Assembly: GCA_020846435.1 (NCBI GenBank)
Contig: JADLDY010000023.1
Coordinates: 1 to 32,798 of the forward strand
Direction of reading: 5' to 3'
Length of the DNA: 32,798 nucleotides
Origin: Deltaproteobacteria bacterium
GTDB taxonomy: Bacteria; Desulfobacterota; GWC2-55-46
The position numbers and the translations under genes are program-made. Under the pieces are notes generated by a model. The model was given only the letters and a program-made list of their open reading frames with translations, had not been told where the DNA came from and searched no databases. This document shows, one piece after another, positions 12,850-13,621 of this stretch (within the stretch, counting starts at the first letter, position 1; every line of letters begins with the position of its first letter).

Positions 12850-13059
12850 TGTACAATCTTCTCCTTTATTCGCCTTTTGGTCGATAATTTATCAATATAG
12901 CACGAATTACAGCCATTGTGTAGGAAAAAACCCTGCCCGTCCCGCGTCGCAATCGGACCGGAGGTATGCACCATCGACGGCGTGCCGACAGAAAGCTGCA
13001 GGCATCAAAACGCGGATCCCGTTAATCTTCGATTGGAAAACAGCGCCTGAAATGCGTAC

Positions 13060-13083
13060 AGGGAGGCCGATTACGGCCTCCCT
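13060..13083 (-). terminator. Hairpin downstream of the tandem micro-peptide genes
   Basis: A perfect 10-bp stem (AGGGAGGCCG / CGGCCTCCCT) with a 4-nt loop lies 38 bp after the second micro-peptide stop codon on the minus strand. It lacks a clear T-tract, so it may be a weak terminator or a 3'-protecting hairpin. The stretch from here to the helicase start (13084-12850 reversed) holds no gene I can recognise. Confidence 0.5.
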
Positions 13084-13120
13084 GCCGGAGGAGTGAAGAG
13101 GAGCGGGAATTTTGCGGAAT

Positions 13121-13204
13121 TTATATGGACGAGAGAACGGCCGGCAGAGCTAATATCAGGGCCGCGAGGTTGGCGATTATTTCCATGAACCCCATGCTCA
13201 TCAT
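13121..13204 (-). CDS. Hydrophobic micro-protein of 27 residues, function unknown
   Basis: A tiny ORF begins ATGATGAGC just after a GGAGG site (4 nt before the first ATG, 7 nt before the second, which is the better start). It encodes 26-27 residues, roughly M-M-S-M-G-F-M-E-I-I-A-N-L followed by an Ala/Leu/Ile-rich segment ending PAVLSSI and TAA. It is hydrophobic enough for one membrane-spanning helix and has a single acidic residue. It lies 14 bp downstream of a second micro-protein gene of the same kind and is probably cotranscribed with it. It is not homologous to anything I recognise; membrane micro-proteins of type I toxin-antitoxin systems or small regulators of membrane complexes are possible analogies. 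The support is ribosome sites, tandem layout and composition only. Confidence 0.5.
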   Translation of the reverse strand: MMSMGFMEIIANLAALILALPAVLSSI

Positions 13205-13218
13205 AAGGCCTCCAGAGC

Positions 13219-13308
13219 TCAGGCAAGATTGATGAGGGTCGACAGGACCGCGAGTATGACTATCACGTTCAGCGTAACTTCAACTATGGTCTCGGTTGTC
13301 TTTTCCAT
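13219..13308 (-). CDS. Hydrophobic micro-protein of 29 residues, function unknown
   Basis: The ORF starts at an ATG five bases after a strong AAAGGAGG ribosome site and ends in TGA. The 29-residue product begins MEKTTETIVEVTLNV and continues with a hydrophobic run of Ile, Val and Leu to STLINLA. It is net negative at the N-terminus and could be one short membrane helix or an amphipathic peptide. A consensus TATAAT at 13342-13347 would start transcription about 27 nt before the ATG. With the next gene at 13121-13204 it forms a two-peptide unit flanked by a promoter element upstream and a hairpin downstream. No known family is recognised. Confidence 0.55.
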   Translation of the reverse strand: MEKTTETIVEVTLNVIVILAVLSTLINLA

Positions 13309-13341
13309 GTCCGCCTCCTTTGACCCGTTGTTTACGATTCC

Positions 13342-13347
13342 ATTATA
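13342..13347 (-). promoter_or_regulatory. Probable -10 element for the micro-peptide pair
   Basis: A perfect TATAAT lies on the minus strand about 34 bp upstream of the first micro-peptide ATG. No good -35 is seen at 17 bp (ATACCG), so it is either a weak or an activated promoter. Confidence 0.45.
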
Positions 13348-13441
13348 CTCACAGGAGATTAAGCCGGTATTAAGGCTGAAAATAAATATCCGGCGCTGAA
13401 TAGCTGGAGAACGAAGGCGGATGAGGCTCTTTTGCCGTTAC

Positions 13442-13621
13442 AAAAAAAGGCCCTGAAATGTAAATACGCCCGGAAGGCAGTCATGGGCTTCCGGGCGTAT
13501 TTCTGGGTTTCGCTCTAACATGTGGAAAGGAGAACCCCAGGTCTCTATCATATGCGGTAACGGCTTCATGCCCGTTACGACTACCATTTTACTTATGAAA
13601 GATTAAGGCGAGATTAGAGAC
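13442..13621 (-). ncRNA. Candidate structured non-coding RNA with terminator
   Basis: This gene-free stretch downstream of dinB contains four nested or adjacent pairings on the minus strand: an outer GTCTCTA (13615-13621) with TAGAGAC (13541-13547); GTAACGG/CCGTTAC (13557-13578) inside it; CTGGGG...CCCAG (13503-13540); and a perfect 15-bp stem (13462-13476 with 13488-13502). A T7 run at 13442-13448 follows. The density of pairing and the terminal T-run suggest a small RNA of about 170-180 nt. The last two stems can also compete, because CCCAG may pair alternatively with the GGG just before the T-run. I considered 6S and SRP RNA; neither signature is convincing. The promoter is unclear. Confidence 0.45.

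Follow-up and report, generated by a model that had tools for sequence, protein, structure and literature searches.

Two tandem micro-ORFs, here called ORF A and ORF B, were analysed in the genome of a deltaproteobacterium, and we propose, with a probability of about 0.6, that they encode members of a membrane micro-protein family within the regulon of a two-component system (regulator RR1, histidine kinase HK1), that these micro-proteins are presumed to tune membrane redox complexes, and that a small RNA (sRNA) forms a parallel arm of the same regulon. The window, i.e., the whole stretch of DNA that was analysed, has a length of 32,798 nucleotides and is part of a 2.4-Mb draft genome.

Organization of the locus

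The two ORFs are flanked by dinB (DNA polymerase IV, PF00817) on one side and by a DEAD-box RNA helicase gene (PF00270, DbpA domain) on the other, and their products read MEKTTETIVEVTLNVIVILAVLSTLINLA (29 aa, ORF A) and MMSMGFMEIIANLAALILALPAVLSSI (27 aa, ORF B). A preliminary description of the locus had reported two tandem minus-strand ORFs of 29 and 27 residues, 14 bp apart and each with a Shine-Dalgarno (SD) site, a TATAAT ahead of the first ORF, and products that are hydrophobic single helices. All of these features are present in the sequence (Table 1): GGAGG is found upstream of ORF B, the sequence upstream of ORF A reads CTTAATACCGGCTTAATCTCCTGTGAGTATAATGG, and each product consists of one single hydrophobic helix. 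The hairpin that had been placed after the second ORF is present as well and an equivalent hairpin follows ORF A in the loci of two relatives (L002 and L003), but there is no clean U run after it and it is regarded as a terminator candidate only. The preliminary description did not mention that two TTAAT repeats precede the TATAAT, that a further promoter of this kind is located 244 bp upstream and leads into a probable sRNA, or that the genome holds paralogs at other loci.

Table 1. Sequence features around ORF A and ORF B, with positions counted along the window.
Feature	Position	Strand	Basis
Hairpin after ORF B, approximately 11 bp, CAGGGAGGCCG-TAAT-CGGCCTCCCTG, terminator candidate	13059..13084	minus	sequence
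ORF B, 27-aa membrane micro-protein (E-I-I-A-N motif)	13121..13204	minus	sequence, positional counterparts, weak HMM support
ORF A, 29-aa membrane micro-protein (E-V-T-L-N motif)	13219..13308	minus	sequence, orthologs, dN/dS, HMM
Shine-Dalgarno AAAGGAGG of ORF A	13314..13321	minus	sequence; strong SD in every ortholog
-10 element TATAAT of the A-B promoter	13342..13347	minus	sequence; GTATAATGG kept across the regulon
Putative response-regulator box CTTAATACCGG-CTTAATCT, 11-bp direct repeat	13356..13374	minus	pattern search, 0 mismatches; reversed-pattern control 0
Probable sRNA from second box, ending in GC-rich hairpin and TATTT	13462..13577	minus	conserved in three genomes; start inferred from -10
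sRNA terminator hairpin AATACGCCCGGAAG...CTTCCGGGCGTATTT	13462..13501	minus	sequence, conservation
sRNA pairing region UUCUCCUUUCCACAUGUUAGA	13514..13534	minus	complementarity and covariation
Second box and -10 (TAATCTCGCCTTAATCTTTCATAAGTAAAATGG)	13584..13616	minus	0 mismatches; kept in G001 and G002

Coding potential of ORF A and ORF B

The same arrangement was found by DNA search in two genomes of the same genus (G001, loci L003/L031; G002, loci L002/L029), where the counterparts of ORF A read MEKTKDNLIEITINLVVALAVVSTLIKVSL and MTKIKDNLLEVTINLVIALAVLSTVAKVTL and each has a strong SD and the same promoter. In comparison with these two orthologs the dN/dS of ORF A was 0.18-0.31 and the substitutions per codon position (10/3/19, 13/6/17, and 8/3/14) were biased toward the third position. 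Because of this ratio and this codon-position pattern ORF A is, on comparative grounds, a protein gene. Five other ortholog or paralog sets of similar micro-ORFs gave dN/dS values of 0.06-0.51 with an excess of changes at codon position 3, one pair being without any non-synonymous change. Using a leave-genus-out HMM, ORF A scored 13.9 bits, which was reached by 0 of 200 shuffles, and ORF B scored 6.4 bits, which was reached by four of 200.

For ORF B no close ortholog was found. Its place upstream of the DEAD-box helicase gene is occupied by a clear family member in G002, G005, and G029 (MKEQGIWDVIANVAVMVAIVAAVII in G002 and MNGMNEIFEAVANLAVIVVIIAAVII in G005), with which it shares an (E/D)-x-x-A-N motif. 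Based on this position, the shared residue motif, and the ribosome site, ORF B is probably a protein gene.

The preliminary description had looked to relatives for reading frames kept with synonymous-biased substitution, conserved ribosome sites, and conserved gene order. The frame is kept in this way for ORF A in the two genomes of the same genus and its ribosome site in all orthologs, the result for ORF B being limited by the missing close ortholog. The order is conserved as to the place upstream of the helicase gene and not as to the pair: in G001 and G002 ORF A stands alone behind the promoter and only in this genome is it followed by ORF B, so that the earlier suggestion of a two-peptide system is not supported as regards a unit.

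The micro-protein family

ORF A and ORF B appear from their sequences to be members of a family of inner-membrane micro-proteins (approximately 23-40 aa) that have a single helix, are specific to the lineage, and occur as several paralogs per genome, the HMM support being weak for ORF B. The family alignment is near-gapless and displays E/D-x-x-x-N/S/H, often E/D-x-x-x-N, at the start of the helix. ORF A has every characteristic of the family (single helix, E/D-x-x-x-N/S/H, box promoter, strong SD), and ORF B has the motif and the SD and shares the promoter of ORF A. Matches to the family HMM were obtained in 21 of 58 genomes. Searches of the micro-proteins against Pfam, NCBIfam, and PHROGs gave no credible match, a weak Pfam match of ORF B to UBA (E 0.16) being dismissed as chance.

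At least eight family ORFs were identified in this genome, namely ORF A, ORF B, two on contig C60 (MNRTVDLVEF... and MKISELYFPL...), one on C23 (MKTSQWILAI...), and three on C34 (MKVLAADFAA..., MIDEIGIMDL..., and one at G000:C34:54560 without a recognisable box). The position of the cluster, flanked by dinB on one side and the DEAD-box helicase gene on the other, is conserved and holds up to seven micro-ORFs (G005). In the g10 genomes and in G044, which belongs to another family, this helicase gene is likewise preceded by a box and two or three micro-ORFs. An exact scan of the contig collection returned 20 stretches, most of them from one clade of "Deltaproteobacteria" MAGs; the five from unrelated taxa correspond to about chance level.

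Tandem arrays of near-identical micro-proteins of 27-32 aa (e.g., MTRIFETVASLAVIVTLVAVSA...), some copies with their own box, were observed at L227 and L228 (G026), L230 (G012), and L231 (G019). At L088 and L090 (G002 and G001) ORFs of 62-65 aa end in a family-like helix (...AILEVLLNIAVVLVLVITITV) and have a polar N-terminal extension; the true start of these ORFs may be internal.

The promoter box

Just upstream of the TATAAT of the A-B promoter lie two CTTAAT-like half-sites 11 bp apart, which read CTTAAT-ACCGG-CTTAAT, and most members of the family are encoded behind a promoter of this type. The pattern of box and -10 element was matched six times in the own genome (at most three mismatches; reversed control 0) and in 37 of 59 genomes when relatives were searched (at most two mismatches; three matches in total for the reversed control). 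An SD-led hydrophobic micro-ORF of about 23-40 codons directly follows 33 of the 47 box sites in the clade, as compared with 1.2% of random positions and one of 39 sites that have a -10 element only.

Other boxed genes in the clade encode a TlpA-like thioredoxin, a cytochrome c, PepSY, and cytochrome b561. One box of the own genome (C34:40740) is followed by a 30-aa micro-ORF and then by the gene of a cytochrome b561-dihaem cytochrome c, an arrangement kept in G001 and G003. The gene of the TlpA-like thioredoxin has the same box upstream in several genera (among the boxes of L057, L058, L061, L065, and L067), and at L058 and L061 a boxed micro-ORF is located directly upstream of an ApbE-type gene.

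The candidate regulator

Only two OmpR-family regulators were identified in the own genome, PhoB (with PhoR) and RR1. The latter is encoded in an operon of cytochrome b561, RR1, and the histidine kinase HK1 (L120, G000:C29), and this operon carries CTAATCGACTTTTAATGTTCAATGCCCTATCAT, i.e., the same repeats with a spacer that is one base longer. A site precedes the operon at 28 of the 30 RR1 loci that were taken from this genome and its relatives, the -10 element being poor at one of the 28 (L139); the regulator's own operon is thus boxed across species, as in OmpR-family autoregulation.

The distribution of the box follows that of the two-component system. Of the 40 genomes with the system 33 have boxes, as against four of the 19 without it (Fisher p 8.5e-6, a value that overstates independence as the genomes are related), and two or more boxes are present in 25 of the 40 and one of the 19 (Fisher p 2.0e-5, relatedness likewise being ignored). 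G015 and G021, which had seemed to have boxes and no RR1, were counted as having the system since their cognate kinase was found as a fragment. In genus g6 boxes and family members are both absent from four genomes without RR1 (G008, G017, G025, and G027) and both present in G029, which has RR1. Seven RR1-bearing genomes gave no box match at two or fewer mismatches. The one clear exception in the other direction is G012 (100% complete, 20 contigs), where boxes and micro-proteins are present and a search for RR1/HK1 found neither; here the system was either recently lost or is missing from the assembly, or the box is read by another regulator.

RR1 matched TIGR01387 (CusR/CzcR) with 274.3 bits, a near miss of the curated cut-off of 279.2, and HK1 matched TIGR01386 (CusS-type) with 261.5 bits, below the curated cut-off of 292.55. 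With 199.5 bits against NF007928 (PmrA; cut-off 330) RR1 is not a PmrA equivalog. Residues D41-x-H43, E58, E67, and E70 of the outer domain of HK1 are kept in almost every one of 21 orthologs, a pattern suggestive of a metal or redox signal. Taken as a whole, the comparative data make the CusR/HprR-like RR1 the likely activator of the boxed promoters.

The Pho box and the PhoB regulon, considered on account of the 11-bp direct repeats, were rejected as an explanation: the pst/phoU region had no box at five or fewer mismatches, and the phoB region had a single match with five mismatches and without repeats. At L074 (G055:C66) genes for a PepSY protein and a cytochrome b561-dihaem cytochrome c fusion were observed behind a box and next to a cytochrome b561-linked two-component system.

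A probable small RNA and its candidate target

The second box of the locus is followed by a probable sRNA. Rfam holds no family for it, giving sub-threshold matches to the terminator hairpin only, and no conserved ORF was found within the sRNA stretch. Its core is a perfect complement, over 20 nt, of the ribosome-binding site of an exported multihaem cytochrome gene (G000:C7, L200), and over 21 nt in G001:C13 (L201). Three positions differ between species in both the sRNA and the cytochrome target such that pairing is retained, and the other paralogs of the target cytochrome have unrelated leaders. The pairing energy with the cytochrome leader was -37.4 kcal/mol, compared with -20.1 for the best of 300 shuffles. 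This is strong sequence evidence that the probable sRNA would block translation of the multihaem cytochrome c.

Paralogs of the multihaem cytochrome are broken at contig ends (L218 on G000:C1, L200 on G000:C7, and contigs C30 and C39 of G000), which looks as if near-identical copies broke the assembly.

Proposed mechanism and alternative explanations

RR1 would bind the two CTTAAT-like half-sites in place of a -35 element, as comparative sequence data support, and would activate transcription from the adjacent TATAAT and also from its own operon. ORF A (supported) and ORF B (probable) would each be translated from their own ribosome site. The products would insert as one helix, may bind a membrane partner via the conserved acidic and Asn positions at the helix start, and would tune or stabilise membrane redox complexes, e.g., the cytochrome b561/dihaem cytochrome, as PmrR tunes LpxT, in response to a periplasmic metal or redox signal that the kinase is presumed to sense. 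In a parallel arm the probable sRNA, transcribed from the neighbouring RR1 box, would act on the multihaem cytochrome c. The targets activated by RR1 would hence comprise its own cytochrome operon, the micro-ORF with the cytochrome b561-dihaem cytochrome, the sRNA, and the micro-proteins, and across the clade also TlpA-like thioredoxins and a cytochrome c.

Modulation of membrane redox complexes appears to be the most likely role of the micro-proteins because there are redox genes in the regulon and because PmrR, which has the size and topology of a micro-protein, provides a precedent with LpxT. The membrane partner is a guess, since only one micro-ORF lineage occurs in an operon with a cytochrome and most stand alone. 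This agrees with the preliminary description in so far as it had taken the two ORFs for genuine genes of membrane micro-proteins that might regulate a membrane complex, a view that purifying selection on ORF A, the family, synteny, and the conserved promoter uphold; where it had left the function open, the present data narrow it to a place in a two-component regulon that is CusR/HprR-like and linked to cytochrome b561. More tentatively, one envelope redox/metal sensor might switch on, order-wide, fast-evolving micro-proteins that each serve a different membrane protein, together with a cytochrome-silencing sRNA.

The main rival is that the micro-proteins are fixed, CydX-like structural subunits of cytochromes or transporters, with one paralog per complex, and not conditional modulators. 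Consistent with this, one micro-ORF lineage precedes the cytochrome b561-dihaem cytochrome c in a box-driven operon in three genomes of the genus, and cytochromes and TlpA-like thioredoxins are frequent in the regulon. However, most micro-ORFs, including A and B, are not beside any complex gene, and the tandem near-identical copies in G007, G012, G019, and G026 are more easily explained by the dosage of a free effector than by a stoichiometric subunit; we consider this reading unlikely.

Distinctly less probable is a type I toxin-antitoxin module, an idea put forward in the preliminary description, in which the peptides A and B would depolarise the membrane and be kept in check by antisense or anti-SD RNA. 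Peptides of the Ldr, Ibs, and TisB type are similar in size, hydrophobicity, and multi-copy tandem arrays, and the gene of an sRNA that contains an anti-SD stretch lies directly upstream. This sRNA has the same direction as A and B and overlaps neither, and a search by sequence alone found no antisense partner. In contrast to its pairing with the cytochrome leader, its pairing with the leaders of ORF A (-16.5 kcal/mol; shuffle mean -16.9) and ORF B (-16.9 kcal/mol; shuffle mean -13.7) is no better than shuffled, and an antitoxin role of the sRNA toward either ORF was rejected on that ground. The activator-type box of the promoters and the ordinary redox genes in this two-component regulon likewise speak against a toxin module.

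That A and B are leader peptides or attenuators for the downstream DEAD-box helicase gene is very improbable: in several genera this helicase gene directly follows the cluster, with a hairpin between, but members of the family are also found at many loci where the neighbouring genes are different, the protein sequence is under selection and has no codon runs, and in the window the helicase start lies approximately 270 bp downstream of ORF B. Chance ORFs without a product can practically be dismissed, for although ORFs of 27-29 codons are common by chance and ORF B taken alone is weakly supported, this reading is already contradicted for ORF A by its dN/dS and by the SD, promoter, and place conserved in relatives.

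Significance

If the regulation of redox-tuning micro-proteins by RR1/HK1 proposed here is true, these bacteria would possess a micro-protein regulon that remodels the electron-transport membrane. Tiny membrane proteins have mostly been found singly and their function is hard to guess. Here one conserved promoter signature marks many micro-proteins in dozens of genomes and would tie them to one sensor-regulator pair and to cytochromes, so that micro-proteins could be found from sequence in organisms that cannot be grown, and the timing and the partners of their action could be predicted in a testable way. The sRNA with its covarying target pairing is unusually clean evidence for a regulatory RNA from uncultured bacteria. 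Regulated single-helix micro-proteins are already known; in the open-access literature we found no description of a micro-protein regulon of this kind, in which a multi-paralog family is linked throughout an order to a single box and a single two-component system and has an sRNA arm beside it.

Comparison with known systems

Small cytochrome subunits such as CydX are single-helix proteins of about 30-40 aa encoded in one operon with a b-type cytochrome, as is the micro-ORF at C34:40740. Unlike CydX, the micro-proteins have no Pfam or NCBIfam match and most paralogs stand alone. RR1 and HK1 resemble the CusRS/CzcRS/HprRS systems in that TIGR01387 and TIGR01386 were their best NCBIfam matches; they differ in that both scores fall below the curated cut-offs and in that the operon includes cytochrome b561 and not metal efflux genes.

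The PmrA box of Salmonella and E. coli, bound by an OmpR-family regulator, consists of YTTAAK-type direct repeats with a period of 11 bp (PMC3973317, PMC10927774), and the YTTAAK repeat with its 5-bp gap is found at the promoter here as well, and regulon-wide. PmrR, a small protein of the PmrA regulon, inhibits the membrane enzyme LpxT (PMC8129183); the likeness to the micro-proteins is that of a small regulon protein by role, and no sequence likeness is claimed. In contrast to PmrA, RR1 is closer to CusR/HprR by NCBIfam score, and the system described here has many paralogs and a cytochrome-linked kinase operon.

The box of BqsR, from the Fe2+-responsive BqsRS system of Pseudomonas aeruginosa, reads TTAAG-N6-TTAAG, and one of its pentamers serves both BqsR and polymerase binding (PMC4682146). 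Two pentamers with the same spacing, (T/C)TAAT-N6-TTAAT, are found here, and the downstream half-site is close to the -10 element here too, whereas the pentamer ends in T and not in G. In the literature found, no micro-protein family linked to BqsR was described. Membership of either system is not claimed. In its half-sites and their spacing the box agrees with that of PmrA, and it is closely similar to the BqsR box.
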